From Tomocerus qinae (lineage: Eukaryota > Arthropoda > Collembola > Entomobryomorpha > Tomoceridae), in NCBI GenBank assembly GCA_020055645.1, contig CM034546.1, positions 91,140,001 through 91,204,000 on the forward strand: a DNA stretch of 64,000 bases, in the 5' to 3' direction. The position numbers and the translations under genes were made by a program. Under the pieces are notes generated by a model. The model ran no database searches. It was not told where the DNA came from and saw only the letters and a program-made list of their open reading frames with translations. Shown piece by piece: positions 3,764-63,294 of this stretch; within the stretch, counting starts at the first letter, position 1; every line of letters starts with the position of its first letter.

Positions 3764-5984
3764 TCATTCACTAGAACTTTTACTTTCGTTTGTCTCTTCA
3801 ATCTTTGCATCACTATTTTTCTGACTCTCATCTTCTCTCACTGGTTCTGCATGGCGTTTGTGATATCCTGAATTTGTTGTACTGTAGGAACTGTAACTCA
3901 TTTCAGGAGCATAAACACCTAAACTGCCGGGAGAAGAGTAAGACCCTTTAGTTGGCTGTTTTACCAAATTACCCGTGGGTATCGCTCCTCCAGAAGGAAC
4001 TCCATATTCACTATGTGGCGCATTAGCTGCGTATCTGATGAAGTACACCCTAAAAGAGAGAAAAATTGTATTCATAAATGCATGAATTTGATTTGGCATG
4101 ATTTGATTATCCACAAAAAACTTACTCTGGTGGAGATGGCTTTGTTGGTACTGGGCCTGAGATTTTCACTTCATGATTATTTTCTGGTGCCTTTGTCAGG
4201 ACATAGACTAGTGTCTTTTGAACCTAAAAATTCATGGTAAGGTTATAAGCACTGTATTCATTTATACTATAAGGTGGTATTGATAAAATTGCAAAGACAT
4301 ACCGCAGGGGGTGGTAACTGAATCTCGGTTCGCACTGGAGCTTGAGGAGTTGGTGCTCGGACAAATATAATTTGGTAATGCTGGAGATTAAGAAATAAAA
4401 TAGATTAAATAATTGACATTTAGCATGCATTAGCACATTTAAAATACCTTTTCTGGTTGCTGATTTATGGGTTGCAAAAGCCGCACTTTCGGGGAGTAGG
4501 CCTCTTGTGGAGCTGTATGCACATATATATGTTTATGTTCTTTTGGCACTTCTGGAACGCCATAAACTTGCCGAATTTCTTCGGGTGGGCCATAACTTTC
4601 AATAGGCTGCTCGGAAATCAAAGACTGAGATATTCTCAATATACTATCATCTGGATTTGGAGCATTGTAGTACGTATCTGTCATTTTCGCTGTAGGAATG
4701 TAGGTCTCGACGACCGCCGGAGGAGTATAGCCGGGTGGGCCGTAACCAGCTCCAAGAGACTTAAATTTTGCGAGCGAGGGAGCTCCATATTCGGAGGATA
4801 TCTTTACCGGAGCTCCATATTCGGAGGATATCTTTACCGGAGCTCCATATTCGGAGGATATCTGTGTCGGTGCTCCATATTCGGAGGATATCTGTGTCGG
4901 TGCTCCATAATCGGAGGATATTTTTACAGGGGCTCCATAACCGGAGGAAATTTTTACGGGGGCTCCATAATCGGAGGAAATTTTTACAGGGGCTCCATAA
5001 TCGGAGGAAATTTTTACAGGGGCTCCATAATCGGAGGATATTTTTGCAGGGGCTCCATAATCAGAGGATATCTGTTGTGGTGCTCCATAATCAGAGGATA
5101 ACTGTTGCGGTGCTCCATAATCAGAGGATATCTTTCCAGGAGCTCCGTATGAGCCACTTACTTCTTTTAAAACAGTTACTGGCTGCGTTGTAAATAGTTG
5201 GTTCCGGACAACTTTTGCTACAGGATTTGGAGCATCATATGTTTGTTCAAGATTTACCACAGGTGCAGCATTATCATAAGCGTCAGCAACTTGATTATTT
5301 TCCGGGATATTCTCTCTCAGTCTGACAATGGCTGGCTGTGTGTTGTATGATTCAACCGGAGCAGTATACGTTGTTTGAGATACGACAGGTGCTACTTTGA
5401 CTACCTGAGATACTGGTGCAGCATAAGTCGTTTGCTGTACAGGAGCAGCGATATACTGGGAAAATTGCTGAACTTGAGCAGGAATGTTAACAACAGTAGG
5501 AGTATCGGATTGACTGATATAATTTTGTTGGGAGAGAATTTGCGTCGGAGGGGCTACATATGCTTGCGATTGTAGAGGAACTGTAAAATACATTAACAAA
5601 TTAAACTTTATAGGTAACAGCTTTTAAATTCAAACGGTATTGCAAAAACAACTTCATCAATTTAATTTCTGTTTACCAGTGTAAGTTTGTTGTACTGGAG
5701 AATAATAAAGTTGCTGCGGCTGCTGATATACTACTTGTTGCTGTTGTTGAACAGGAGCAGTATAAATGTACTGAGGCGAAGCCCCACCGTCAGATTCCAT
5801 TGCGATTTGGTCAAAATATTGCCCTGAGGCAAGCATCATTGTCGATGCTAAAATCTATTACATTAAAAATTTTATCATAATGAATTGGGGAAGTCAGTTG
5901 AGATGAATAACAAAATACATTAAAAATATGGTAATAAGAATAAGCGGATATTAACAGGGCTTTACTCACCAGTGCAATCTTCAT
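3764..5984 (-). CDS. T1: Tweedle/DUF243 cuticle protein with YGAP decapeptide repeats
   Basis: Six coding exons (minus): 5984-5970, 5854-5677, 5580-4448, 4380-4303, 4223-4126 and 4049-3764, giving 595 residues; all introns are GT-AG. Exon 1 encodes only MKIAL, and exon 2 completes the signal peptide (cleavage likely near ASGQ). A Gln/Tyr-rich region follows. Residues about 206-334 are a tandem array of a ten-residue unit of the form SS(D/E)YGAPxxI. The DUF243 (Tweedle) domain covers about 415-507: the YVHTAP block, the HYQIIFVRAP block, LPPP, KTLVYVL, then KPSPPEVYFIRY. An acidic, serine-rich tail ends ESKSSSE. Tweedle proteins are secreted, chitin-associated cuticle components; the YGAP repeats are probably an extensible or cross-linked segment, which is inference. 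A TATA-like box lies about 180 bp upstream of the ATG. The family call is firm; the exact orthologue is not. Confidence 0.93.
4775..5155 (-). repeat. 30-bp tandem repeat array coding the YGAP decapeptides of T1
   Basis: About thirteen 30-bp units lie in frame in exon 3 of T1. Each encodes SS(D/E/G)YGAP followed by a three-residue linker (VKI, TQI, QQI, QQL, AKI or GKI). Neighbouring units are almost identical at DNA level and fall into sub-blocks with a shared linker and shared third-base choices, for example three VKI units in a row and two TQI units in a row. This points to recent unit-by-unit duplication or unequal exchange. The high identity opens long frames on the opposite strand that are not genes. 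Confidence 0.95.
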
Positions 5985-12672: not shown

Positions 12673-15600
12673 TTATGATTCTGATGTTACTTTATCGCCA
12701 TAATTGCTTTCCGACGAGGAGGACTTGCGACTTAAACCTTTCGATGACGAATCTGGTTTCGTTGGTGGTTCTACCACAACTGGTTCCACGTTTGTAGCTG
12801 CGCCATAAGATCCCGATGGTACTGAAGAATACGTTTGCTGTTGTCTAGCCTTCTTTGGGGCCTTGTACCTGATGAAGAAAACCTATAACGAACAGAAATA
12901 GGAATTAGGATATACATTTCATGTAGAATAAATATATTTTAGCTTTATAATTTCAATTACCTCTGGCTTGCTTGGAGGGGTTGGTGGGTGACTGCAAATC
13001 AAAAAATAAATCAAAGTTAGACCAAATAAATTAATAAAAATATGAAAATGATAGCAACTCTAAAATATCTTACGTTGGTACGATAATTGGTTCTGGAGGC
13101 TCCACTCGTGGGACAAGGATGTAGACCAAGGTCTATTAACAAGTAGAATGAATATTAGTACTGAAATAAAATTGTGTTTACTGATTATTGTGTATCAATA
13201 TAAAATTTACCTTCTGTTGTGGTGGAGGGGGTGGCAGAATCAAGTCTGGTTTGGGTGCCTTAGGTCCCTTGACATATACAACCCTGTATTCGACATTATG
13301 GTCGGGTCCTGCTCCTGTTACAACTGGAGGTGGGCCATATCCGATTGCTCCTTGAGGTAATTGAGGGGCTCCGTAAGAGACTTGGACATTAGTGGGTGAA
13401 GAGTATTGCTGAGATGATGAAACGGATGGAGCTGAGTACTGAGACTGTTGTTGTTGCTGACTTGGAGCAGAATAAGAATTCTGGGAAGAAGATGATGGAG
13501 CTGAGTATGATTGTTGGGATTGTTGAGATTGTTGAGATGGAGCATTGTAGGAATTTTGTTGGGATGAGTATTGGTTGGAAGGTGCTGCGTATTGAGATTG
13601 TTGCTGGGAAGAGGAAGCGTACTGCTGGGGTGCCGGGGAATATTGAGAGAGTTGATTGGAAGAAGAGGTCTGTTGCGTCGAGGACGAAGACGATGCTGCA
13701 GATGGAGAAGTATAATGGGAATTGGATGGAGAGTATACTATTTGAGGTCCTGGATTTTGCTTCTCCAGCGTTGAATAATACTGCGGCATGACATATTGAT
13801 GAGAATGTGTCTGACTCGACGGAGGAATGTGTATTTGAGCTACGGAGGGTACAGGTTGAAAATTCAAATCTGGGTTTGAACTTCGATGAGAATATCCGGT
13901 CGGAGATTCGGCTGAAGCTAGCATCGCTATCGATGCCAGAGCCTAATTGAGAAAGGAGAAACAGAATTTCAATTAGTGAATAAATAGATATTTGTTTGTC
14001 TTGCGAGAGTAGATTAAATAGTGTGAGAGTAGGAGTGAAGTGGTTGATTTATATTGTCAGGAAAAGTAAACTTTCCAATTGCGTCGTAAATAGATTGCTA
14101 AATTGCTTAGGTATAGGAAACAGAAAAGTGCATTAGATTTGATTTTCCTGTGGCCTAGACTGGACTGTAACAAAGCGGCTAATAATGACTAATGACTAAA
14201 GGAAAATTCCTGATGGGAAAATAAACATCTGCGGCATTGCAAACGTTGATTTGTGCAATTAATCAATCATTAGAGTGCAGGATGCTGCACGACAAAACAG
14301 CTCATAGTCCACACCGCCATTTTCATCTACCTTTCAAAATGTCCTTTGATTTGACAAACGGTGCAGGCAATCTTTTTGCTACTTTAAGTACTACTTTAGG
14401 TATCTGTAATAAAACATATTATTTCCACGTAGTCATAAACCAATAGGAAAGGAGATGGCAATGATGTGAAATAAAGTGGAATGGATTTACAGGAGTGAGT
14501 CACAATTAGTGGAAGCCATTCTTCTCCTACTTGCAACTTGCCTATTAATAATGTATAAGGTAAAGGGAAAGGAATTGTTGATTTGATAAGATTTTGTTTG
14601 CAGTCAAATCAATTGAGTTCTCTTCCTTTCCGTTCTCTTGTCTCTGTCTTTTATTTCTGTTATTATTATCGTGTTGTACTTGTACTTGTTTGTCATACTT
14701 ACTGTTCTATTTTGTTCTTTGACTTGGTTAGTAAAATACTTTCAACAATTTCATCTACTCTACCTTACCTTACTTGGCTAATTACTAATTCATTTTATTG
14801 TGGCAGACCGTTTTTGTTTGGTTTACTGAAAGTCTACTGCAAATGCATACAAATTACTCCTTCGTTCGTCTACCTCATATTTAATGCATTTTTTCAATTC
14901 ATACATTCGTGTCCTTATTTATGTCTTATCTCTACAGCACAGTCATCAATTAGTTATTTAGTATTATTCACTTAGGAAATATCCCAGATAGTGTAATTCT
15001 TAGAGAGATAATCATGGTAATGATGAAGATATCATCATTAAATCAATACACGCGCATGTTTAGCACAATATCCTGCTAATAAATAAAGAGGACGTACAAT
15101 ACAGGTACCTAATTCCTTTTATTGAATTCTCTTGACAAACATCTGATAATGACAAAATATCATTATTAGAGTTTTCTGTTTGTTGTATCTCTATCTCATT
15201 TGTATGTATATTATACATTGCGCTCTATTGTATAAACTGAATTTCATTTGGTCGTGCCAATCCACAAAAAAGAAAACAGGTTTTCATAACGTAATAGTTA
15301 AACTGTAGGTATTGTAAAGCATATTCAGCTGCATTGTTATGACTAGGGCATCAGTTACGAAATCAATATCTGTAGGTATCTATCTGGTTAGGTACAGACA
15401 GACTTCAGAGAGTGTTATTGTATGGTCAGGTATAACAAAGCCAATGTCCGGCATGAAAATAAAATTTTTATCTGAGTAATGTTCATTCACTACTCCACGT
15501 AATGCTCAAAAGGATACATTTCATATACATACATTACTCTACATTTTTTTCCCTCTGTAGAAAATGTTTTGTTGCATTCTCAAGTAAATTGTTGGTTTTC

Positions 15601-29888: not shown

Positions 29889-31265
29889 ATGAAAGCCTTA
29901 ATGGTATTGTTTTCATTTTTTCTCATCCACAACTACTTCAAAAATCTTTGTTTATTGTAAATCGTAAGTAATTGATATTTACAGATTTTCAGCTCTTTGG
30001 TGTTTGTGTCCACGGCTCAATTAGGTTCTCCCCAGTACGGAGGTTTGGGAAGGTTCACCCGGGGTGGCTTCGGATTTGGTAACGGAGGAGGAGGAGGGAG
30101 TGGTGGTGGAAGAAGTTTTGGGATATTAGGAGGTGGTGGTGGTGGTTATGGAGGTCAACTAGGTGGGTCACAAGGGGGCAGTTTTGGGGGATCTTTTAGT
30201 GGTGGTTATAGTGGCAGAGGAGCTTCGGGAGGCTCTGGAGGTGGATATGGCGGTGGACAATCTGTCAGTTTGGTCAGTCAGTTTGGTCAACCCGAAGGAG
30301 GATTTCGTCCATCTCAGCAATCATTTGGTGGCGGACAACAAGGTAGATGTTAAGAAATTCTTTTAGTTTTATATCTATTCCACAAGTTTTGAATAATTTT
30401 ATTTAAAAGCAAGGAGAATTTCCATTTTCAGGCAGAGGAATTGATTTTCAAGAGGAATCCAGACCCAAGATTCACAAATACGTTTCAATTCATGTAGCAC
30501 CCGAGGAGCCACCTTCACAAAGATCGTCAAGACCAATTCAGCAAAAAGAAAGAGAAACTCACTAGTAAGTATCCATTCATTGGTTCCTTTCATTCACTAT
30601 AATCTCACTAATTGTGGGAGGTTTAATATGCAAAATGTATGCAAAATTTAAGATAAATTGATTTAAATTCCAGTCAAATTGTATTCATCAAAGCTCCACA
30701 CGCAGGGGCTGGTGAATCTGGAGAAATTCAGTTACCTCCACCTCCACAGGTAGAGTGCCTAAAATTAATAGTAAATGCTTAATATATTTGAAATCATGTT
30801 GAGGTAAACATAATCTTTTTAAATCCATATAGACGAAAACCCTTGTTTACGTTCTACTCAAAGTAAGTGATATCTTTAATTGACATGCATTATGAACTGT
30901 TGTGTTTCTGATAATTAGTAATCAAAATTACTTTATGCTAAAGAAACCGGAATTGGGAGATATGCTACGCTATCAAAAAGCCTCATCGGCTCGCCCTTCA
31001 AAGCCAGAAGGTAAGGACGAGGTACTGCTACTCAAAAAGTAGAAATAGCTTGTAGTACAAATATTTTTTTAATTTTTCAGTTTACTTCATTCGATACAAG
31101 GGAGGGGATAAAAACAAAAATGGAGGATCTCTTGGAGGAGCTGAGGGAGGAAAGGGTGGTGGAAGCGAAGATTTCGGTCCTGGCAGTGGTCCAGAAGGAC
31201 CAGGCGGGGCAGGTGGCCCTTCAGGAGAAAGTCAAAAGTACGGACCACCCTCAGGATCCTTTTGA
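29889..31265 (+). CDS. T3: glycine-rich Tweedle/DUF243 cuticle protein
   Basis: Seven coding exons: 29889-29903, 29985-30342, 30432-30564, 30674-30749, 30833-30862, 30944-31010 and 31081-31265, giving 287 residues. Exon 1 is MKALM; with exon 2 the signal peptide reads MKALMIFSSLVFVSTAQ. Residues about 20-124 are Gly/Ser/Tyr-rich. DUF243 runs from about 138 to 232: KYVSIHVAPEE, HYQIVFIKAP, IQLPPPPQ, KTLVYVLLKKP, then SKPEVYFIRY. A second Gly/Ser/Pro-rich tail ends in YGPPSGSF. It is the only Tweedle gene here on the plus strand. Likely a secreted cuticle matrix protein; glycine-rich arms are common in flexible cuticle, which is inference for this gene. The family call is firm. Confidence 0.93.
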
Positions 31266-34602: not shown

Positions 34603-35638
34603 TTAAAATGGAGTTCCGTAAGTTCCAGATGGCTTCTGGACTTCGACTGGGACTGGAGCAGGTCCATATCCTCCGGCGGCTTGTTGCTTTTCCGCATCCT
34701 TGTAGCGGATGAAGAAGACCTCAGGCTTGCCTGAAATTTCAACAACAATTTTTAGAGTAAGCGACCAAATGAAAATAGACAAGGAAAATGTAGGACAATA
34801 AAGTGATTGGTTTACTTGGCCTAGTTGGAGCTGGTCCTCTAATCTTCAAGTCGGAAGCGGAGTCTGGTTTCTGTAAGTAAATATTGATATTAGTTTTCTG
34901 AAATCACATCTCATGAATCCCCTTGGGGGGTTTGTGACAACTATTTTCTACACTTTTCTACAATATTACTATCAACTTACCTTCAGCAAGACGTAGACGA
35001 GTGTCTTTTGTTCGTTCTGTTGAGGCAATTCAATCTCAGTGTTGGAACCTATAATGAATCATTATCATCAAGTATATTTATGAACATGTTAATCTACAAA
35101 TATTTGAGAGCATAAGCCTTCGGCTATAATATAATCTTACCGAAAGAGGTTGATGGTGCTTTAACGAAAATGATGTTTACCTATAGATAGATGGAAATAA
35201 TATAATTTTCATTTTTTGCATTTGAAATTACGTAGGCTTTAAAATTTGCATATAAATGAAGTGTACTTACATGTTTATCATGTCCACCTGGAACTCGGAT
35301 AACTTTGGTTTGGTTATCTTCTTCGTCTTGTGGAGCTACGTGAACTGAATTCAGATAAATAAAACAAAGAAAATTAATTTTTACATTGTTTAATAAAATT
35401 ATGAGTGTTTAAATTTTTTTACCATAGACATGTCGGTGTACTTTTCCAACCTCTTGGACAGGTTGTCCATAAATTGGTTTTGGGGCTTCTGGAACACCAT
35501 ACTGTGGAGCTGCTGCGGCGAGAGCTACCAGAGCCAAAATCTGAACGAAGATAAAAACGATTTAGTGTTATTTGGTAGCGGTAAATAATATATTGACGAG
35601 AGCACAAAGAATCCAAAACTCACCAGAATAACTTTCAT
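34603..35638 (-). CDS. T4: short Tweedle/DUF243 cuticle protein, nearly domain only
   Basis: Seven coding exons (minus): 35638-35624, 35540-35423, 35344-35271, 35180-35141, 35048-34981, 34870-34816 and 34730-34603, giving 165 residues. Exon 1 is MKVIL; the signal peptide is MKVILILALVALAAAAPQ. There is almost no spacer before the domain, which runs from about residue 38 to 133: RHVYVHVAPQD, HVNIIFVKAPS, IELPQQ, KTLVYVLLKKP, then PSKPEVFFIRYKD. The tail contains GGYGPAP and ends GTYGTPF. This compact form, with its introns spread through the domain, may be closest to the ancestral layout of the cluster. A secreted cuticle role follows from the family. It shares the intron after VLLK with T3. 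Confidence 0.93.
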
Positions 35639-38548: not shown

Positions 38549-41505
38549 TCACTTATCCGCATTACCCTTAAAATCAAGTAGCTGGACGGAATTTGGGTAG
38601 AGAGGTTCCTCTGCTCCGTCCATTTCAGTAGCAAGGACGTTGTCGTGTTCCGCCCGATGCTGCATTCCTCCGATTGCCTCTCCACATTCGTAGCACACAC
38701 CTTGTTCAATAGCACCCCCGCATTCTGTGATGATGTAGACATGACCTTTCTTGCATTTGAACCAACGGCCAACTTGATTTCCGAAAGCTTGGAGAATTGT
38801 CATTTTCTCGTCCTCACTTATTCCCAAGTTAATATTTAAAAGTTGATCGTAGTACTAAATCACAGTGCAAATATCGAATCAGATGCCTGAATGAAAATTT
38901 TGTTTAATGTTGTAATTTTATAAGCAATGACTTGGCAATACCTTGAGATTTTCAAGAAATGTTTGTTCCCTTTCAACCGTGTAGGGTACTGGGTAAAGCA
39001 AATGGTTGTAAATTGTATCGAATTTGTCCCTAGTTTTCGTTAACCTAGTGAAGTTCTTGACAGCTTCGCTGGCGTCCTTTCCATGTCGCATTTGAATTTC
39101 AACTGCATGCTGAACTCTGATAAATTCTCGGTTGAAATCTTTTACTTCTATCTTACTTAAAGGAATTTTTCTTCCTTCAAGATGTTGAAACAGATCAAGG
39201 TAAAGCTTTTCAAGATGCTGCCATCGATTCTTTGGCAATTTAATACGGATTTCTTCTAATACTTTATCCGTTGACTCAATAAATTGCCAGTACTGCATTG
39301 CACCATCGAGCTCTGCTTTGGAAAGCTAAATGAAAGAAATAACGTACATATATAGTTCCTCAATATTTTGCAGTCATTCCAATTCATTTCATTGGAGTTT
39401 CATAAAACTTACTTCTTTGTTATCAGTCATAAAATTCAATAAAAAATCCTTCATGCTTTGAAAAATTGTATCCTTATAGCTATTTATCGTGGCCAGAAGA
39501 GAAATCCGTTTCTTCCGATTTTCATATTCATCTCCGTTTACTACAGTCATTATCTTCAATATATCATTTCTATTAGTGTACATCACGAGTGAATACCGCT
39601 TCAGTTGACGAATAACTGTACGACACAACGGACAAAAAATCGGAGTTATTTCTTCTTCGCTTTTCCTTGATGCCATCCAGCCATCCATTGAGTTACTTTC
39701 TATTACATGTTCACAATCTGGCAGGAAAACGTATCTGAACACAAAAAAGTATTATTCATAATTATGGGAGAGTAAAAATAATATTGCTAAATGTTTATTA
39801 CTAAACAAGAATATATTACCTGTCCGATTCTTCAGGAGAGTCTCCTAGTAAATTTCCTTCGGCCAGTTTGTCTTTACTGCAAATAAAACAGTAGGGTGGA
39901 CAGGGTTCCCCACAAAACCCAACACATGGATGTCCACATTCTGGGATTAATTCTTGGCACGGTTCGTAACATGGTTCCTTGTCACAGATTTCAAAACATG
40001 CTTTTGAGCAGGCACCGTGCAAACATTTGTAGTCACAGGGTTCCTGAAACGTTAGTCAACGGAACGTTATGTAATTCGCAATAAGTTTTCAGTGAAAAAA
40101 CGAAATTCAAAATTACTGCCTACCTCACAAGCGTTGCAAGTTTCACCGCATTTCAAATTGCATTCTCGGTGGACGCAAAAATTGTAGCATTTATTCTGGC
40201 AAGGTGGACATGGTTCTGAACAGGAAGCGAGGCATCTGTAAGGAATGAACGGAGTATTTATACTTTTTGAAAATTCGTATTCCTTATTTGAGATGTAAAT
40301 TAAGAAATACTAACTCACAGGTGACCACAGGGCAAGATATTAGTACAAGGCTTATTGCATCTCACGTGAAATCTGCCTTGTAAACACTGAGAACAAATCC
40401 CCACACAGGGATGGTCACAGCTTAAAATTGAATTACAAGGCGCATCGCAAATTTGTAGAAGTTCCCTATTGGGCTTAATATTTCGCCTTTTTCCTTTGCC
40501 ACAGGGAACTAGAACTTCATGACCACATGTTGAAGAAGGATAAGCCGGAACTAATTCCTCACAAAGAGCATCATATGCGTCTTCATAACATTCCGTGTAA
40601 ACTACATGAGGACAAACGCCCGGTCTCCGTTTTTTGACTATAATCTAAAAGTTGCAATCAAAAGAAAATTGAAAATATCAAATTGAATTGAAATCAAATC
40701 AAATCAAATCAAATTGAAAATATCAAAAATACGAAAAAGATACATATGCAGATAATGTGTAATTTAATATTTGGAGATTTAATGAATTACCGTGCAAGGA
40801 GTACACGGTTCTCCGCATTTCTTTTTGCATTTATGTCCACAGATGATTTTCCTGTTGCAAATTTGATTGCAGACGTATGCAGCAATGGAGGCTTCTTTAT
40901 TTGCACAAGGAACTTCCGTCTCGTGTCCGCAAGGAAGTTTTTCCTTGACCAACTTTAAGCAAGGTGGACAATAAAATCCATCTTTGAGGTTTTCTTCAAT
41001 TTCCGATATCCTTAACCCGGCATCTCCTTCAGAACTTGATGCTACACTTCTTGTCTCTCGAACAATTTCGTGACATACATTTTCGCATTGATGACCGCAT
41101 GGAAGAAGAAGATCACATTTAGTAACACAGGGCTTTGGGTTCAATGATTCGTGACATTCTCCTACATACTGTACAAATAATATAATTGTTTCTTCATTCT
41201 ACCTATTACAATATAAAACAAGAAAAAATTAGTCTTACCATATGACGACGGCATTTTTGGATGACATCAATCAGCTCCGAACATTTGACCCCTGGAGTTT
41301 CATTCGCATAAAGAGCCTGTTGATATAGAATTTCTGGTGGTAGACCGGAATTTAGAACGTAGCAAGGGACCCATCTTGAGTGTCCACAGGGTAGATTCCT
41401 TAGTACAGGCATAACACATAAAGATTTATTATTTGACACAAATGCGTCCGAAGACTGATGGCCACAGCCAAGTCGTCCGTTTCCGTACATTCCCCACATC
41501 TCCAT
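38549..41505 (-). CDS. ZNFX1-like zinc-finger protein lacking the helicase (NFX1-type plus RZ-type fingers)
   Basis: Eight coding exons (minus): 41505-41239, 41168-40791, 40644-40319, 40235-40124, 40043-39820, 39734-39413, 39325-38942 and 38854-38549, giving 772 residues. Residues about 30-430 hold a run of NFX1-type fingers built on LPCGHxC and CxxxC motifs (LPCGHSRWVPC, LPCGHQC, ICGHKCKKKC, SCDHPCVGIC, LPCGHLC, ECGHPCVGFC). Residues 437-671 are mainly helical. At 702-728 an RZ-type finger reads WFKCKKGHVY, ITECGG, then CYEC, with C-x3-H-x6-C-x8-C-x2-C spacing. This order is the carboxyl tail of ZNFX1, an RNA helicase of antiviral and small-RNA pathways usually near 1900 residues. Here an in-frame TAA lies directly before the ATG, and no helicase exons are seen upstream. 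It is a helicase-free paralogue, or a gene broken or badly assembled at its 5' side. Confidence 0.85.
40691..40710 (+). repeat. (AAATC)4 microsatellite in an intron of the ZNFX1-like gene
   Basis: Four AAATC units plus a near copy, inside the 146-bp intron 40645-40790. Simple repeat, no function implied. Confidence 0.75.
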
Positions 41506-43470: not shown

Positions 43471-45114
43471 TTAGATACCACTAACTCCAGCATCTATTTC
43501 CGCAGGAGGTAAAGATCGAAGACGATTTTCAGAACCAGCTCCATGTCCGTAGCTTTCGTCCACATAATCTGGTCCCATTGGTTCACCTGAGTATTTAAGA
43601 AAATAATTTAATTTCGATTTAACATTTTGTAGTATTAGCAAAGAACGATACTGCCTTAGTCCACTCGTTGCAAGATATTGTACATTAAATTAAAACCAGA
43701 AGAAAGGTTAGAATTTCAATTTTGTGAGCATACACTTAAATGAACCCAAGTTGCTGAGTAGTTTTAAAGTGTAAAGCTAACTAAACGTCTACAACTTGTA
43801 CAAAATATAAAAATATAATCTAATTCAACGCACAATACTAACCTAATGGACCACCTGGAGGTCCGTAGTGAGATGGGCCATCGTGAACGGGATAATCATG
43901 ATGGATATCCGCTACAGGCGGTTCTCCATGTCCAAGATGATGGTGGTGATGTTTATTCATGTAGCGAATGAAGTATACCTGTGCATGCAATTTGTTACAT
44001 TATGTAAGTGCATATTATGTGTAAGTACAAATACAAGAATATGTGTAGTTAACAACCTCAGGTTTAGACGGTGGACGTGGTAGAGGCTTGATGACTTTAA
44101 TTGGCTTTGATTTCTCTGGCTTTTTAACTAACACGTAAACAAGAGTCTGAAACATAAAAACATGATGAGCAAGTTATTTACCAAGTTTACCTATGTTATA
44201 TTCATTTTCGACTAATTTGTTTCATTAGTGTTAACATCCATTAGTGTCACAGTACCTTTAATTCCGGATGAGGAGGTAATTCCAATTTGTGCTAGAATTT
44301 TAAAAGGAGTGTGATATAATATTCTTTGCTAATAATGAAATAATGTAACAAAATAATTTTAGTTCAGGAGATCCTACCTGTGGAGGAGGAGGTGGAGTTG
44401 GTGCATTTATGAAGACAACTTGGTAATGCTTTTGCTGTAAGAGAAATTATGAAACAGGTATAACATTTTTTCCAACAGAGAAACTTTTGAAAAAAGGTTT
44501 AATGAAATTACCGGTCTGGCAAAAGGTACTCTGCTGATAACAGTTCTTGGTCCCACATCACTTGGATCAGGAGGAGCAGAAAAGACGAAAACTGACTTGG
44601 AGATTTCTGGTGGAAGATCCAGTGGATTTCCAATGAGACCTGCTGGACCTGGATGACCTCCAGGGCCTTCTACAAGAGCCAATCCTCCTCCGAGTCCTCC
44701 TCCTAGTCCTCCTCCATGTCCTCCTACGAGTCCTCCTCCATGTCCTCCTCCATGTCCACCATGGTAATCGACTATTGCATGTGCATGTTTCACTCCACCT
44801 CCAGCGTAGTGGTTGCCTCCATGTCCAAGTTGAAGTGGTGCTCCATATCCAGCAATCTGGACATCTTCGTGGGCAACTAACTGAGAGACGGGAACTCCCA
44901 CTCCACCGTGGTGCCCCACATGTCCAGAGTATGCAACTTGTTCTCCATAGTCTGAAGCTTTGTGTTTTAAGTCATGATAGTGTCGTCTTGACTTGGCTGC
45001 AGCCAACGCCAATGCGCAGGCTAGAACCTAACTCACCCAAAATATGTATGAAAATCCATGATAAAAATCAATCCTCGAAAAATAAATTAAGTGCCTTACC
45101 ACGAATATTTTCAT
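43471..45114 (-). CDS. T5: Gly/His-rich Tweedle/DUF243 cuticle protein
   Basis: Seven coding exons (minus): 45114-45100, 45027-44512, 44434-44378, 44291-44256, 44146-44057, 43978-43843 and 43586-43471, giving 321 residues. Exon 1 is MKIFV; the signal peptide continues VLACALALAAAK. Residues about 30-140 are Gly/His-rich with GGHGGGLGGG runs. The domain spans about 150-244: a diverged first block VFVFSAPPDP, then KHYQVVFINAP, LELPPHPELK, TLVYVLVKKP, and PSKPEVYFIRYM. The tail is His-rich (NKHHHHH) and ends in VSGI. The His-rich arms could take part in pH-dependent or metal- or quinone-linked cross-linking, as proposed for His-rich cuticle proteins; this is inference. The donor after exon 5 (GAG/GTTGTT) is weak, but the phase and domain continuity support it. 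Confidence 0.91.
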
Positions 45115-50302: not shown

Positions 50303-52302
50303 TCAATATCCTCCGGATGAAGATTGATTCCTGGAGAGACTTCCAGCCTTTTTGGACACTGGTCGGAATGCAGACTCTTTTGGCTGAGTTTCAAAAGGCC
50401 GACTTCCAGGAGCGGTGTAGTGGCTGCTGCTTTTCGTAGATGACTTTCCTTTCGGCGATGACTTTTTTGGGTTGGATACTTTTTTATTTTCTGAGTAAGC
50501 CCCGACGAAGTCATTATTATTGTAGCCACCGTCTCCGTTGTTTCTCGGTGTGCCGTAGAATTCTGTGGGCTGAGCCAATCTATTATTGGGACCCAAATCT
50601 GCCTCTTCGTCATATTGCAATGGCCCTTGGTCATCATTGATTTGGGGACCTTTATTATCACTGTAGCGAATGAAATAAACTTCAGGTTTGCTGGGTTGCG
50701 TGGGTGGCGGTGCTGGAATTCGGATCTCTGGAGCAGGATGCGGTTTCTTCAACAGCACGTAAACCAAAGTTTTTTGTTGAGCTAAATTCAAAACAAAATG
50801 AGTAAATAAAATTTTCCCTGAACATAAATGCGTAAAATGTGGAATAATACGTACGGGGAGGTGGCAATTCAATTTCTTGAGGTTCCTCCCTGGGGGGACT
50901 TGGTGCTTTCACAAAAATGATATTGTAATGAGTTTCAGGAGCAGGGGCCTTCACTTTTTGAAGTCTGGGCCTTGGGGGCTGCTGTAATTCTGGAGGAGCT
51001 GTGTGGATATACACGAACTTTTTAATTTCTCCTACTTCTGGACCACCGTGGAAGGAGTTGATATTTTCTGAATATCCTCCGGGAGCATTACGTTGACTAT
51101 CTCTGTAATAACCTCCGGAAGATGCAGTTACTAAGTCATTTGAAACTGAATTTGTACGAACTGATTGTCTGCTATTTGCAGTGTAGCCTCGTTGTTGAGA
51201 TCTCCCTGAGAAACTTGACCTTTGAGGAGGGGAATTACTTTCTTCGCTTTCAAAATCACTTAATTCTTTCAATTCCTGTTGTTCTGGGACCCCAAATTCG
51301 TCTAAAACTGGATTCTGAATTATTGAGGGCTCATTGTTGTAGCCATTTCTTTGATTGTTACGAGCAGGAACATTATATTCATTTCGGACTTGATTTTTTG
51401 GGGTATTGTACTCTTTTCTCACTTGAGTTTGTCGATTCGGTAAGCCGTACTCTCTGCGGGGCTCACTTTGGAGATTTTGTTTAGTTGGAGCTGCATACTC
51501 ATTTCGAACTATATTTGGACTTGGACGTGATTTCTCTTGAATTGGGCGTTGTGGTTCAGGGACCACTTGACGCTGGGGTTCAGGTGCCCGATATTGTTCT
51601 CGGATCTGGTTGCTATCCCGCTGTCTCTCGAGTGGACCAAATTGTTCGGGATTTCTTGCAGGACTTACATACTGATTTTGAGAAGCTGATTGTAGTTGCG
51701 AGGAAGCAGAGTTTGCTTGCTGCTCAAATGTAAATTCCGGTTGAATGGCTGCAGCCTGAGTTAAAACTTGAGAAATTAAACGATTTAAGTCGTAATCGTT
51801 AGTTGCAGAAGGATCCACATTGAGATACTGAGCTGAAGCTAGCATCAGTGAAGATGCCAGTAGTACCTGCAAGATACATTTATGCATGAAATGAAAAATA
51901 AGAATTATTTACTTCGATATGCAATATATTTTTAACCATTGATGACATAATTTCTTTCTATCTATCTATCTATCATCTTATATTATTAGTTTGAGATACT
52001 ACAATAATAATTCATTCCATTCAATTTAAGAAGGGAACCGAGCTTAAAAAATGGTACACAAATCCTGATAAAATTAAGTTGATTTGACATTTGGTAGTAC
52101 TACAGTAGAAAGCACGGTACTTAATATCTGTGATAGTAAATACAAAGCTCGTGATATAAAATTTTCTGAGCAGAATCTTTGAATTTAAAGTCACGACTGA
52201 GATTAATTTTCTGATTCGTAACACTTTCAAAAAGATGACAAGCTAAAACAATATTAATTATCAATAGAAACTAAAGGATGAACTCACAAGAAGACACTTC
52301 AT
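50303..52302 (-). CDS. T6: Tweedle/DUF243 cuticle protein with reduced intron number
   Basis: Three coding exons only (minus): 52302-52288, 51866-50855 and 50781-50303, giving 501 residues. Exon 1 is MKCLL; the signal peptide is MKCLLVLLASSLMLASAQ. Residues about 60-270 are polar, Gln/Arg/Asn-rich, with loose repeats of the form (R/K)xEYxxP. DUF243 runs from about 283 to 382: FVYIHTAPPE, HYNIIFVKAPSPP, IELPPPPQQ, KTLVYVLLKKP, then PSKPEVYFIRYS. The tail is Asn/Ser/Lys-rich and ends SSSGGY. The domain introns present in T3-T5 are gone except one inside the LPPPP stretch. The family assignment is firm; a secreted cuticle role is inferred from the family. Confidence 0.92.
51957..51974 (+). repeat. 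(TCTA)n microsatellite in intron 1 of T6
   Basis: Four and a half TCTA units lie in the first intron of T6. A simple length-variable repeat; no function is implied. Confidence 0.8.
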
Positions 52303-55361: not shown

Positions 55362-58300
55362 CTAAGCATGAAGTCTTCTTTTAACACCTTTGCGAACTAT
55401 CTGGGCTTTGTTTTGATACTGAACTGGAATTTGATTTTCGGTCCTTGTTCCATCATTACCGGCAGCACACTAGGAAAATAGACGAAAATTGGAAACTAAA
55501 AATTATGTATGGAATGGTGTTTATGTTAGAATGGTGTTTATGTTAGAATGGTGTTTATGTTGGTTAAAATCTACTCACATAATCAACATATTGCAATTTA
55601 TGATTAAATGCATCATCGTGATGCTCCAAACGAATCATGCAGTTGTCTTCGAACGGTGCCTTGTCCTGATTATGTGTAGAGCAATGTTGGGGCGGTTTCT
55701 TACTTAAAATGGAAGCATTGGTTTCCCGTATGGGGCAAGATGGCGGGAAAAGACTTAAAATCGGTTGTTGCCCACGACACGTAATTAGTCTTGGCGATTT
55801 ACAGTTTCTCAGGGGCACACATTGCGCAGTTTTACAATATCTGTTCTCGTTCCCACCATTCCTTCTACTATTTTCAGAATCATCGGTATTTCTGGGACGG
55901 TAAGTGTTAGTACCAGGAGGAGGCGGAGTTTGTCTGAATGAATTCGGACCATTTCCCCTTCCATTATTTCCTCTCCCGTCATTTCCTCTCCCGTCATTTC
56001 CTCTCCTATCATTTCCTCTCCCGTCATTTCCTCTCCCGTCATTTCCCCTGCCATCATTTCCATAATTTTTTCTATTGGTGTTTCTATCGTTTTGATTTTG
56101 ATAGGATGGAGAATGATCAGCATCGGAATTGGAATGAGTAATTTTAATTTCTTGTCCTTGATTCCCCTTATCGGTAATTTCTATTTTTGTTTGTGTTGTG
56201 GTTCTCCTTGCTTGAATAGGTTGGGGATGAGAATGCCTGCCCCTTGGATCAGCAGTGTGATGATCTTCAATATTACTACTTTTTTGGTTGAACGGTTTGT
56301 AGTTCATAGGTAAATGCGTGGAAGACACTTTGAAAGAGGGTTCTTGATCATGGTTACTGATGGTGACGGACTCTTGAGGTTGCAATGTGAAAGTCTGATT
56401 ACGATTTCCAGGGATTTGGCGATGAGTTATTTCCGTATCATCATGGTCTCCTAAATTGGTTATCTGTATTGAATCTGGAATATTATGAGTATTGTTGTAA
56501 ATGTCATAATCTCTCTGTGGAACAATTTCTATAGAGTTTTGTCCTCCATAATTATTAATTGGAGTATAATTTCTTTCTTCTGAGTATGGAATGTTGGTGC
56601 AATTCCTGCCATCCATGGAATTTTCTCTTCTCATGATCTCTTGGGTGGAAACTGAACAGTAAGTTACTGGTTCTTCTTTGGAAGTGGCAAAATAATTCTT
56701 GTGCTGCTCTTTGGGCCAATTTTGAGCCTGTTGAAAATTCTGCTCCTCTAATTGCTGTATATTTGCTTGATAATGTGGAGGAAATTGAGGTATATTAGTA
56801 GGGCCCTTGTCCTGATAATATTGTGTTGGTTTCTGACTATATTCTGGATATTGATCTCGATGATATTGTGTTGGCTGTTGACTATATTCAGGATATTGAT
56901 CATGATGATATTGTGTTGGCTGTTGACTATATCCAGGATACTCGTCCTGACAATATGGTGTTGGTCGCTGGCTATATCCAGGGTATTGATCCTGATAATA
57001 TTGTGTTGGTCGCTGGCTATGTCCATGACGCATGTTATCATCATGAAATGCAACTCGAATATGTTTTGTCTGACAAGTTTTAGTATTTTCAGCTGGGTCG
57101 CAACACTCATTTCGACGATTTCTATCGTTTTCCTGAACCAATTTTAAGATTTCATTAATCTCATCCATTTCCTCGGGACGGCAATTGCCAAGCACTCTTT
57201 GAATTTGCGTGGGCTGTGTGGTAGGAAATACGGGACGCGGAGTTGTTGTTGATGCTGGATGAGTCGTTACTGCATGTTGCAATTTCGTCTTTGTCTCCGG
57301 TTGTTCGTGGACAGTATAGACACTGAAATTATTAGAGACGTAATTTTGTGCCGGGACCCTATGCTTCAACTTTGGATCTCTTGCATTTGATTGCAATCTT
57401 TCCTGCTGCTGTGGTACACATTTTTTATCGTGACCCTTTTTTACGGTAATACGCTGAGTATGGTCAAATGGATTTTTCTGTATAATAATCTGTCGAATTT
57501 TTGATTTTTCTGGTGGGATAGGGTACGTGTGCAGTTGTTGTTGCCCTCGTTGTTGTGAAAAATCTTGATGGTCGGTGTAATAATGTTGCTGATTCGGAGG
57601 ACGGACTGCAGTGGCACCGATTTCAAGCATTGCACCTGTATTTCTGTCAATGCATGGTCGGTTAGCTACTGTCATTGCTGATCGAGCCCCATTGACCCTA
57701 TTCCATTGCCCAAGTCCACCTTCACGTTCCTTGCATATATGAGGTACACTTTGGGAGTGTTGAATACGAATATTGTGGTTTATGTTTATGGGAACAGCTA
57801 GTGTGCGGCTGCTACTGCAGGCTGGCTGTCCAGTAAAAAGTTGTTGCATACTATTGGCTTCACAGGGAATGGCGGAAGGAGCCCCTTCTACATTTACGGT
57901 GACATTAGATCCCGGCTCGAATGTTTTTTCACTCCTTGCTGGCACCGTACTTGTACTCATCGTTGTTTTACCAGATATTGCAGTCGAAAGATTATCATAA
58001 TTTTCCTCACTTTCATTTTCCAGCATACCTTGCGTTTCAGTTGCGGCAGTGTATACTTCTTTTTCCACTCGTCGATTATTAACGGTGCTTCTAGACGGAA
58101 TTGCTTTTCGATTTTGTCTTTCTGGAGGATCTGGCATTGGCAGCCCGCAATTAATCATATTTTGAGCAAATCTATCATGACATTTTTGGCACAGTGTTTT
58201 TAATCTTTGGGCTTTGGCTGGCATGCAGCAAGGACGCTTCCTTCTCCAAACTACCGGTTTGCAGATCCTGGGGGGCTTGTCTTGTGGAATACAATAATCT

Positions 58301-60248
58301 CCGTCGTCTTTGAATCGTTTCATTTCATTTCCAGGTCTGTTTGCTTGTTTTTGTGTTGGAAAACCATTATTCATTTCTCTATTTCCACCTTGAAATCTTG
58401 ATGGTGGCCTGTTCATTGGGTCGTAGCGATTGGAATTTTGGGGGATTGGTCTGGCAGATGAAGGTGGTCCACCTAAATTTCTATTACCTGGAATATTCCT
58501 ATTAGAATTTACGTTGGATTGTACCCGATTGCTTGGATATCCACTGGGTTGTGTTCGATTGCTTGGATATCCACTCGGTTGTGTTCGATTGCTGGGATAT
58601 CCAGTCGGTTGTGTTCGATTACTCGGATATCCACTCGGTTGTATTCGATTACTTGTATTTCCACTCGGTTGTATTCGATTACTTGGGTGTTCATTAGGTT
58701 GTGTTCTATTATCATTCAGTTTGTGATTACTTGGATAAACTCCGTGATCATTGTCGGCCCCTCGGCCATAATTTTGATTGTTTTGATTATTGCGGACACC
58801 CGTGTCATCGTAATTTCTACTGTTTTGGTTATTACGGGCAGCAGCACCATCGTAATTTCGATTGTTTTGGTTATTGCGGGCAGCAGCACCATCGTAATTT
58901 CGATTGTTTTGGTTATTGCGGGCAGCAGCACCGTCGTAATTTCGATTGTTTTGGTTATTACGGTTCCCTGTATCACCATAATTGCCAGTATTGTTCCTGA
59001 TTCCTGTATCGCCATAAATATTGTGCGGAGTGCCTCTGATTTCTACATCATTGACGCAAACGTCATTGCCATTGATTGGCAAGTTTGGGTATCCTCTATT
59101 GCCATAACCATTTGGCCCATGTGTTCCATCGTTGTTCATATTTGTTCTGTTGTTGGTTCTGGTATTCTGCGTTGGTGTGTTATTCCGCAGTGCTAGCTGT
59201 TGATGATTCGACCGAATAGGATTACTACTTTTATCGACATGTACACCTGCATCATCTATAGTTCCCCATAGTTTTCTGGTTGATCCAGGATAGCCTACTG
59301 GAGGGGGTATCGCTCTATCATTCAGATTGCCCATCCCCATTCCATACGCATCTCCTGAGTCTTCATCCATGCAGGCCTCGAGGCCGCCACAATTGCCCAT
59401 GGCAGTATTATTCCCATTGTTTTGATTAAAACCCTTCGGTAGTTCACTGACGTAGAAGTTGCAGTTATTAAACGATGCTGGTTGTTCCTTTTCAGTCGAG
59501 TTTGAAAATCCAGGAATAGGACATGGCTTTGGTGGTGGTACACATTGAGGAGGGAGTTGCCCTTTTGGCACACAGATGATTTTTCCAGCACCTCCGCATT
59601 TAGCGGCCTGGTTACGACCTTTCGCCATTTGACAAGGATCTGGAGGACAGCAGCGTGGGGGGCAAGGAGGACAGCAAGGAGGAGGACAAGGAGGAGGACA
59701 AGGAGGAGGACAAGGAAGAGTGCAAGGTGGTGGGCAAGGGGGATAAGGCATACAGCAAGGGGATGGCTGACAAGGATAATAGTACGGATATGGCGGACAA
59801 GGAGGAGGACACAATGGAGGCATTGGAACTGGACATGGATTGTAACACGGCTGTGGAGTTGGACATGGTTGAGGACAGCATTGCGGGATGCAATTTTGAG
59901 GGACACAACTCTGTGGACCACAATTTTGTGGGTAACAATTTTGGGGGCACATCGGCATTGGAGGAATGCATTGTGCTGGAAGAATTTTTGCTCCACGAAA
60001 ACGCTCTGGTAGATTTTCAATATTTAGAGCTGGTTGCATAAGATACGACCTAGGTGCTGTTGGGTAACAGAGAGATGCAAAGTGTGTTTCAGTTGATTAC
60101 AATATCTAATTTCTACAATTGCAGTACTTTATAATTGCTATTTATACACTTGCTAAGCTGTCATACCAAATGGAAAACTTTTGCGCGTACCTGCACTCCT
60201 AGCGTTAGCCTTTTTCTGTTGATAACTTGAATTAGTACTGCCGGACAT
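55362..60248 (-). CDS. Large Cys-Pro-rich, Asn/Gln-rich tandem-repeat protein of unknown function
   Basis: Three coding exons (minus): 60248-60191, 60056-55579 and 55469-55362, giving 1547 residues; the phases close exactly. I recognise no family. There is no signal peptide: it starts MSGSTNSSYQQKK. Residues about 53-190 are Cys-Pro-rich, with CPPPC and PQNC units. Four tandem blocks follow, each with its own period: 14 residues (RNNQNNRNYDGAAA, five copies), 10 residues (SNRTQPSGYP type, six to seven copies), 15 residues (SQxPTQYYQDQYPxY, five copies) and 5 residues (GNDGR, seven copies). A non-repetitive island at about 608-660 has WRRKRPCC and CQKCHDRF, a possible metal-binding or nucleic-acid-binding knuckle. 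The end is basic (VRKGVKRRLHA). Cys-rich low-complexity proteins without signal peptides occur in sperm tails and other keratin-like structures, but no role can be assigned. It is divergent from the F-box gene, 628 bp away. Confidence 0.85.
55512..55562 (+). repeat. 17-bp tandem repeat, three copies, in the last intron of the large repeat gene
   Basis: Three head-to-tail copies of GAATGGTGTTTATGTTA fill about half of the 109-bp intron 55470-55578. On the gene strand each unit contains TTCTAAC or close to it, a branch-point-like motif, so the array would multiply candidate branch points. Confidence 0.8.
55951..56060 (-). repeat. 15-bp tandem repeat coding GNDGR units
   Basis: About seven copies of a 15-bp unit (plus-strand form ATTTCCTCTCCCGTC) encode (GNDGR)n with single changes (GNDRR, GNNGR). 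In frame within the large repeat protein. Confidence 0.9.
56812..57030 (-). repeat. 45-bp tandem repeat coding a 15-residue Tyr/Gln-rich unit
   Basis: Five copies encode YPxYSQxPTQYxxDQ variants. They are well conserved at DNA level, in frame within exon 2 of the large repeat protein. Confidence 0.9.
58520..58705 (-). repeat. 30-bp tandem repeat coding SNR(T/I)QPSGYP
   Basis: Six to seven copies of a 30-bp unit, in frame within the large repeat protein. The third to fifth copies are nearly identical. Confidence 0.9.
58765..58970 (-). repeat. 42-bp tandem repeat coding RNNQNNRNYDGAAA
   Basis: Five copies of a 14-residue unit. Three central copies are almost identical at DNA level and the outer two are diverged, as expected for growth from the middle. 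Confidence 0.9.
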
Positions 60249-60876: not shown

Positions 60877-63294
60877 ATGATTTTACCATTTGATAGCCGT
60901 AGAAAGTCAGACGATCAGTTGAGCCGGAAAAAAAAAGTTCAAAATGTGGATCGAATGGAATTTGCTGCTCATGAAAATGTGCTCGTAAATAACCACAACA
61001 ATTTGCATTCGTTTTGCAAGAGTTTAAAAAAATGCTGAATCAAAATGAATTTTAATTTAGGACCGATTTTTAAGAAATATCATTACACATCTGCAAGTAG
61101 ATGAGTTAAAAATAGCAAGATTGGTTAGTAGGAAATGGAATTTAATTATATTTCCTATTCTCATGGAGAAGACATGCATAGCATTCACTGGAGAAAACGC
61201 AGTATGTTCCTTCGCGTCGAATGAATTCACAGAATTTATCCGTGCCACTCCCCGACAAGGATTTTCATGGAAAATAATCTGGTATATTTGGTACAAAAAA
61301 TGTAGAAAGATACGGTATCATTATGCAAGTTTCATAGAAGATTTTATTTTTATTTCAAGTGCATTATTCAAAAATAATGTTGAGGCAGGTATTCCTTCGC
61401 CTTACGTTATCCCTTGGTCCAGTATGAAAATCAGGAATGCCACAAAATACGAACTGACACCCTGGATTCATTACTCACACTTGGTGAACATTACTTCTCT
61501 GGAGCTTCAAAAGATTGACTTGAGTCCGAAACAACTTTATATTTATCTGAAACAATTCACCAATCTACTCGAATTTCGTGATATTTCTTTGAATTATATT
61601 TGTTCGGCTGAAGTAAGAGCAAGTATTGACGGGGACGATTTCTCTAAATCATCGAGAAGGAATTCAAGGACTTCATATCGACGAGACGAGGAAGATATTT
61701 TCCTGAAGTGCCCAAGAACTAAGCAGCCATTGACACATGTTGAGATCAGACGTTCGCAGTTAGAAGATATAATCTTACATCTCAAAGTTTTACAGTTACT
61801 TAATTGTCAAGAACTAGAATCTCTCAAACTGATTGCTGTGGACACTTTCATCAGCTCGGATTTCGTAGATAAAAAGCATAGAATTCAAGATATAAAAATC
61901 GATTTGTACAAAAACTTAACTGAAGTCTTGAGAAACAACCGAGAAACTCTTAAAACTGTTAAATTAGCCTTCCGTCACACGTCAATGGAAGAGTGGTTTG
62001 ATTTATCGGCAAGTCATTTCGATGATCAAATAGCCAATCGTTACAAACCCGAACTAGCACAGTTTTTCGCATATGTACACCATTTCGGTTGGAAGTTATT
62101 TAAAATGGATGCTCTCACTGATTTAGACCTCGAGATTGAAAATAAAAGATACATTACAGATACCGTAGGGATTTACTTCATTTTATAAAACTGATGCACA
62201 ATGTTTTTGCCGTTTTGATATGCAAATGATTTTTTATTGCAGGAAGCCACAAACTTCGCGTCTTTCTTGAGTAGCCTGCCGAATTTAAAGACATTGAAAT
62301 TAGCACACCTTCTTTTCTCTGGCGAAAGCTACCAATACATATTGAAAGTTATCGGGAAGCTTAAAGATGCCGTCCCAAAACAGTGTAAATGCAACTTCGA
62401 AACAATTTATAAAGGTGAAGCATTGGATATTCCTCTAAATATGAAGAACAAACTTTCCGACCACCTTTCTGCCGTGATCATTTACTCCGAACAGCCTATT
62501 CACACTAAATTCTCTCGTAGTACATTTTTAAATAATGTTAATAACAATACGGAAGAGGATGAATTACAAAATTACCCAAATGTTAAATATTTCTGGTACG
62601 GAGACAACATACACGGAGGGCTCGATGTGAAACGATTCAGAATTCGTGACATTGTTCAAGATTTCCCAAACTTAACCACTTTTGTAATTAGGGATTCCCT
62701 TCACGAATCATCGCATTGTTCTCCCGATGTGAAAAGATGGAATATCATTGACGATTTTAATATGCAATTAATTCTCAAGCACCTTCGTCATTTAAAATAT
62801 CTTTCTATATTTGGAAATCTTACCTATCTTACCGATAGTGGCATAACTGGAATATCTTTGGAAGGTTTAGAAAGAATGTATGCTACTAACGACTACACAC
62901 TTTGTCCGATTGATACTACCGGGTCTTCATTCTCATCATTAAAAAGTAAACCAGGACATTTAGCTCATTGCATAACTTTTCGAAACGTTTTTATTCAACC
63001 TTTTATATATTTGACTCCTCGCAGATCTTCATGTTTGCTGTTTGGCATTTCTGGGTAGTAAAATTACAGACGTGAGTCTTCAGCACGGATTTAACAATTT
63101 GAAGAAGCTGAAGATATTAGAATTGGGAGGGGCAATACAGGTAAGGTCTCGTTTAGATTGCATATTAAAAATCATTTGTGGCATTTTATTCGATCAAATG
63201 TTTTCTTTTGTGCCTATAGGTAACGCAAATGGCTACTGACCTCGCCAAGTTAGTTCTTCCGCAAACATCCATAGTTCTAAAGTCACCCGCCTAA
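60877..63294 (+). CDS. F-box/leucine-rich-repeat protein
   Basis: Five coding exons: 60877-60984, 61061-62164, 62243-62945, 63025-63140 and 63220-63294, giving 701 residues. The F-box is split by intron 1: ENVL, then DRFLRNIITHLQVDEL and KIARLVSRKWN (about residues 33-63). Leucine-rich segments follow, such as LQLLNCQELESLKLIAV, LPNLKTLKLAHL, LRHLKYLSIFGNL, SLKNLHVCCLAFLG and FNNLKKLKILELGG. Proteins of this type bind Skp1 through the F-box and choose substrates for SCF ubiquitin ligases through the repeats. The frame has a TGA before the ATG at 60877; an in-frame ATG at 60955 is a good alternative start that would drop a basic, Lys-rich leader. The 78-bp intron that joins SSLK to NLHVCC restores a repeat that would otherwise run out of frame. 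The substrate is unknown. Confidence 0.87.

Follow-up and report, generated by a model that had tools for sequence, protein, structure and literature searches.

A minus-strand gene of Tomocerus qinae encoding a 1547-residue protein with a Cys-Pro head and unlike repeat blocks, tentatively read as an intracellular structural protein

What kind of protein joins a cysteine- and proline-rich head to several unlike tandem repeats, and in what setting would such a product serve? The question is raised by a minus-strand gene in the genome of Tomocerus qinae (334.4 Mb in 115 contigs), which lies in a 64-kb stretch, hereafter the window, at 91.14 Mb of its contig. We found that this locus is a real protein-coding gene whose 1547-residue product is without recognised relatives in the libraries searched. 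Our answer, offered tentatively and with less than even confidence, is that it is an apparently single-copy gene whose product is a structural protein, intracellular and disordered over much of its length, cross-linked through disulfides or zinc, most likely in elongating sperm.

Results

A three-exon gene

Three exons separated by GT-AG introns (Table 1) splice into 4644 nt that read in frame through 1547 residues, the length given in the original prediction, and this model is strongly supported. No stop-free frame of the window is longer than that of exon 2, at 1510 codons, whereas 64-kb sequences simulated with a first-order Markov chain (n = 50) on the gene region's own composition contained longest frames of 186 codons on average and 286 at most; a chance open frame was rejected on this comparison. 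Tandem repeats with lengths divisible by three are able to hold a frame open, and the locus might in principle be a non-gene kept open by chance or by its repeats, but most of the 1510 codons lie outside the repeats, and codon usage and splice sites speak for coding, which makes this explanation extremely improbable. With exons 1 and 3 held out of the codon table when scored, codon log-odds were +0.23 bits per codon for exon 1, a value reached by 1.6% of 917 intergenic 19-codon stop-free windows, and +0.36 bits per codon for exon 3, reached by 0 of 299 intergenic 35-codon windows; these background windows, taken from 3.3 kb downstream of the gene, overlap and hence are not independent, and the background table came from the same 3.3 kb, which favours a coding result. 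The two introns scored from −0.52 to −0.96 bits per codon across the three frames. A 17-bp tandem repeat of 3.4 copies (55503-55561) is situated just past the stop codon that would close exon 2 if it were left unspliced, within the inferred intron 2.

A scan for alternative first exons, limited to exons of ≤130 nt within 4 kb upstream and spliced to the acceptor at 60056, returned six phase-1 candidates, among which exon 1 of the model was the top scorer, with the first-ranked donor, and is hydrophilic; the most hydrophobic candidate (60826-60739) has a poor donor (5.3 vs 7.4). No signal peptide was seen by hydropathy or by eye at the 1547-residue start or at Met26, a dedicated predictor not having been used, and such a peptide, as originally predicted, is probably absent. 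The TATA-like TATAAATA in intron 1 was also present in 20 of 500 shuffled versions of the surrounding 1 kb and is therefore a weak lead only; if it were a promoter, translation would possibly begin at Met26 (60039) and yield 1522 residues.

Architecture and repeat blocks

The protein opens with a short N-terminal segment and the Cys-Pro head. A linker, of which Asn+Gln make up 20%, leads to the 14-residue and 10-residue blocks and the basic island, after which come a non-repetitive middle, the 15-residue block, a second linker, the 5-residue block and the C-terminus. The long Cys-Pro region and the Cys-rich basic island that had been predicted were both recovered (Table 1). Self-comparison of the head revealed internal repeats, PQNC-type 5-mers and then CPPP 4-mers (period 4), and the island holds a WRRKRP cluster as well as a CQKCH motif that falls in a low-confidence predicted helix (635-655). 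Eight Cys are located in residues 1390-1547, and the whole protein contains 62 Cys and 20% Asn+Gln; Asn+Gln rises to 44% in the 14-residue block, and aromatic residues make up 20% of the 15-residue block.

Tandem Repeats Finder detected periods of 42 bp (58769-58963), 30 bp (58526-58711), 45 bp (56810-57025) and 15 bp (55950-56061), corresponding to 14, 10, 15 and 5 residues, respectively, and a further 15-bp array in the Cys-Pro head (59891-59951). At the protein level, the best self-match runs for periods 4, 5, 10, 14 and 15 were 13, 26, 33, 37 and 30, compared with maxima of 8, 8, 5, 6 and 5 in 500 local shuffles, the period-5 run possibly deriving from the C-terminal 5-residue block alone. 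The four predicted periods were thereby confirmed in DNA and protein, above all 500 local shuffles. The description of the protein as built from four unrelated repeat blocks held in part: among the 40 best self-comparison pairs each block pairs with itself and none with another, which bears out 'unrelated', but the count of four fails, the head being repetitive as well. One weak Asn-rich likeness links residues 321-345 with the 14-residue block.

Change between repeat units is mainly synonymous per site. The ratio of nonsynonymous to synonymous differences per site (pN/pS), computed on sets that omit the outer, less similar copies at residues 376 (14-mer) and 468 (10-mer), was 0.22 for the 14-mer (4 units), 0.32 for the 10-mer (5 units), 0.30 for the 15-mer (5 units) and 0.11 for the 5-mer (7 units); with few differences to count and the same units recurring in several pairs, these values lend support without a p-value. 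The three best 14-mer units have the same protein sequence and differ by 1-2 synonymous bases. In raw counts, the 10-mer and 15-mer blocks show more nonsynonymous than synonymous differences (18 vs 17 and 62.8 vs 47.2, respectively), the per-site ratio being low. Homogenisation between units could also reduce both substitution rates.

Predicted disorder

The protein is probably largely disordered, as judged partly from prediction. In a charge-hydropathy plot, the whole protein and 12 of its 13 regions fell on the disordered side. An AlphaFold2 model of residues 599-1026, computed from the single sequence with no alignment, had a mean predicted local distance difference test score (pLDDT) of 40.5 and a predicted template modelling score (pTM) of 0.19, with 342 of 428 residues below 50; the main predicted helices were at ~635-655 and 980-1003, and a short one at 970-975. 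Because no relatives of the protein were found, the model is weak evidence.

Searches for relatives

Pfam yielded no family for the unspliced 1491-residue frame from Met26 at E ≤1, or for residues 1-231, 599-720, 722-1034 and 1422-1547 at E ≤10. NCBIfam likewise contained no family, a result of little weight given that its models are bacterial and archaeal, and no PDB sequence matched residues 599-720 (E ≤10) or the 1491-residue frame (E ≤0.1). The island search proposed originally was run on residues 599-720 as a single sequence rather than as a profile, against Pfam and PDB, with no match. The claim that the protein belongs to no known family stands within Pfam, NCBIfam and the PDB sequences. 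Four pattern matches to the island among IMG/VR viral contigs were not confirmed, the literature on Cys-rich, Cys-Gly-Pro, ODF1/SMCP and insect sperm proteins did not name the protein where we searched it, and none of six of its peptide strings occurred in a literature text search.

The gene is apparently single-copy, judging from comparison with its own genome: residues 1-231, 722-1034 and 1422-1547 matched only themselves at E ≤1, and residues 599-720 matched their own locus and, no better than chance, two other places (E 4.0 and 7.5) with no second copy, in searches that left out residues 232-598 and 1035-1421, where the repeat blocks sit, and whose low-complexity handling may mask other Cys-Pro genes. 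Orphan status would accordingly be a statement about Pfam, NCBIfam, PDB and the own genome, with insect proteomes lying outside this set.

Neighbouring genes

Two neighbouring open reading frames, 50306-50908 and 50682-51908, match PF03103 (DUF243) above the cut-off; the present protein has no DUF243 match, and membership of the Tweedle/DUF243 group was rejected. The two frames form part of an apparent Tweedle-like cuticle cluster (3767-5854, 13181-13942, 29976-31262, 34606-35561, 43841-45027 and 50306-51908), the other members of which were recognised by eye from VYFIRY/VSIHVAP-type motifs, 0 of 9 submitted pieces matching DUF243 at E ≤1. The minus-strand stretch 4439-5623 has SSDYGAP-type tandem repeats of a cuticle-type protein and a weak Cuticle_3 match under the cut-off. 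Also on the minus strand, 38552-41198, which we take to be a ZNFX1-like gene, carries an RZ-type zinc finger (PF20173, E 2.9e-19), preceded upstream by NFX1-like Cys/His repeats seen by eye in pieces that lack a Pfam match above the cut-off. On the plus strand, a divergent F-box/leucine-rich-repeat-like gene (61061-63058) lies ~0.8 kb from the present gene, its F-box (E 0.029) and LRR_4 (E 0.51) matches both being under Pfam cut-offs.

Table 1. Positions of the exons and protein features of the gene in the window
Feature	Position	Strand	Basis or remark
Exon 1 (MSGSTNSSYQQKKANARSA + 1 base)	60191..60248	-	Splice model, codon log-odds, best of six phase-1 candidates; less certain in view of the TATA-like site
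TATA-like TATAAATA in intron 1	60139..60146	-	Possible alternative promoter
Exon 2, almost all of the protein	55579..60056	-	Open frame of 1510 codons
Cys-Pro head, residues 47-198	59521..59976	-	31 Cys, 38% Pro in 152 residues
14-residue block, residues 373-450 (NRNYDGAAARNNQN)	58765..58998	-	Tandem Repeats Finder, self-comparison
10-residue block, residues 468-537 (SNRTQPSGYP)	58504..58713	-	Tandem Repeats Finder, self-comparison
Basic Cys-rich island, residues 599-665	58120..58320	-	7 Cys, net charge +8
Predicted helix, residues 980-1003	57106..57177	-	AlphaFold2, 10-residue block means ≤73 pLDDT
15-residue Tyr/Gln-rich block, residues 1031-1106 (YSQQPTQYHRDQYPE)	56797..57024	-	Tandem Repeats Finder, self-comparison
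5-residue block, residues 1351-1389 (GNDGR)	55948..56064	-	Tandem Repeats Finder, self-comparison
C-terminal Cys-containing region, residues 1425-1512	55579..55842	-	Remainder encoded by exon 3
Exon 3, final 35 residues + stop	55362..55469	-	Splice model, codon log-odds

Discussion

The favoured reading and its rivals

The original suggestion of an intracellular structural or condensate-forming protein, for example of sperm or oocyte, would agree with the composition and the predicted disorder. We infer that the product stays in the cytoplasm and is cross-linked through its cysteines; the sperm setting is suggested by analogy only. In the mechanism that we envisage, the Cys-Pro head would be an extended, proline-stiffened strand presenting cysteines at regular spacing, which would cross-link to the same strand and to its neighbours by disulfides or, prior to oxidation, through zinc. 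The long Asn/Gln/Tyr-rich repeat blocks would act as flexible, weakly self-adhesive spacers, and the cysteine-bearing parts further along, the basic island and the C-terminus, as additional cross-linking or anchoring points. Regular cysteines in a proline-stiffened strand would suit a disulfide or zinc network, just as hydrophilic repeats would suit flexible spacers, and the likeliest place for such a material may be the matrix around the axoneme or the mitochondrial derivatives of elongating sperm.

Several observations weigh against this interpretation. The Cys-Pro head, on which the mechanism is founded, is the sole region that the charge-hydropathy plot classes as ordered, and the AlphaFold2 model does not cover it; low pLDDT is in any case no proof of disorder, since single-sequence AlphaFold often yields poor models. 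The analogy with sperm proteins rests on composition, because the head consists of CPPP and PQNC units and a single CGP is found in the whole protein. No Mst or cysteine-rich names occur in the main text of a Drosophila sperm proteome paper (PMC9494239), and the gene adjoins cuticle-type genes, which if anything points elsewhere.

That neighbourhood is among the arguments for a rather unlikely alternative, a protein secreted into an extracellular matrix (cuticle, eggshell, spermatophore or that of a gland) with its signal peptide on an unrecognised upstream exon: Tyr/Gln/Pro repeat-rich blocks are frequent in insect matrices, neighbouring frames are of the DUF243 cuticle type, and the TATA-like site in intron 1 could be read in the same sense. 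Yet the best of the six candidate first exons is hydrophilic, codon usage in exon 1 is coding-like, and Pfam recognised no cuticle domain. The Asn+Gln content overall and in the 14-residue block, the aromatic residues of the 15-residue block and an island with WRRKRP and CQKCH would also fit an Asn/Gln-rich, prion-like scaffold of condensates or ribonucleoprotein particles in germ cells or the oocyte, in which the island binds RNA or zinc. We regard this as unlikely, given that Pfam identified no RNA-binding domain or recognised scaffold domain, as would be a trait of germ-granule scaffolds, in the 1491-residue frame and the four pieces, and that such a scaffold would not require a head with 31 Cys.

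The gene might, finally, be a fast-evolving, lineage-specific one with no sharp function, its repeats expanding and contracting neutrally as long as the frame is open. Four different tandem arrays, the lack of relatives in the searched libraries and the lack of a second genomic copy of the four pieces are in keeping with this, but the mainly synonymous per-site change between units, small and non-independent as the counts are, speaks against it and leaves it distinctly unlikely. Returning to a cross-linked intracellular protein, we consider doubtful, although worth stating, its extension to an undescribed family of single-copy structural proteins in which a cross-linking Cys-Pro head, several Asn/Gln/Tyr-rich spacers that each expanded independently, and a basic island with the capacity for zinc binding or disulfides together form a redox-cured elastic material inside the cell, for example in elongating sperm.

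If expressed as proposed, the gene would supply a large protein of many blocks that is cross-linkable by nature and lacks a secretion signal. It would be of use for understanding how stiffness is gained in the tails of insect sperm or in other materials inside cells, and how tandem repeats arise again and again within one gene. Should insect proteomes yield relatives, it would be an ordinary fast-evolving structural gene.

Comparison with known systems

Several groups of proteins invite comparison. Mst98C is counted in the Mst(3)CGP family, the members of which are small and have no catalytic domain; ODF1 carries a small-heat-shock-like domain, and SMCP is a short protein with high Cys and Pro, suited to disulfide networks. 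The vertebrate late cornified envelope, small proline-rich and keratin-associated proteins have CPP-type repeats and build intracellular cross-linked material; unlike them, the present protein has no Pfam match. The same absence separates it from the S-Lap proteins, leucine aminopeptidases that belong to the paracrystalline material in the sperm of insects and are an example of an abundant structural sperm protein (PMC6388916).

ODF1, also known as HSPB10, of the mammalian outer dense fibres has a high content of Cys and Pro; disulfides stabilise the proteins of these fibres, which also have zinc-binding cysteines (PMC8471410). The present protein resembles it in its high Cys and Pro, which in the head may likewise suit disulfides; membership was rejected, as no Pfam domain was found in the 1491-residue frame or the four pieces. 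Drosophila Mst(3)CGP genes (Mst84Da-d, Mst87F) share Cys- and Pro-rich repeats with the gene studied here. They are male-specific, with transcription in primary spermatocytes, and flies in which the Mst84D genes are deleted have abnormal axonemes and nebenkern derivatives (PMC10645079). Their motif is a repeated Cys-Gly-Pro (same source), whereas the present protein, with its long Asn/Gln-rich blocks, uses CPPP/PQNC units and has one CGP in 1547 residues, on which last ground membership was rejected. By this analogy, the Mst(3)CGP proteins may serve as the closest working analogues, with ODF1 as another.

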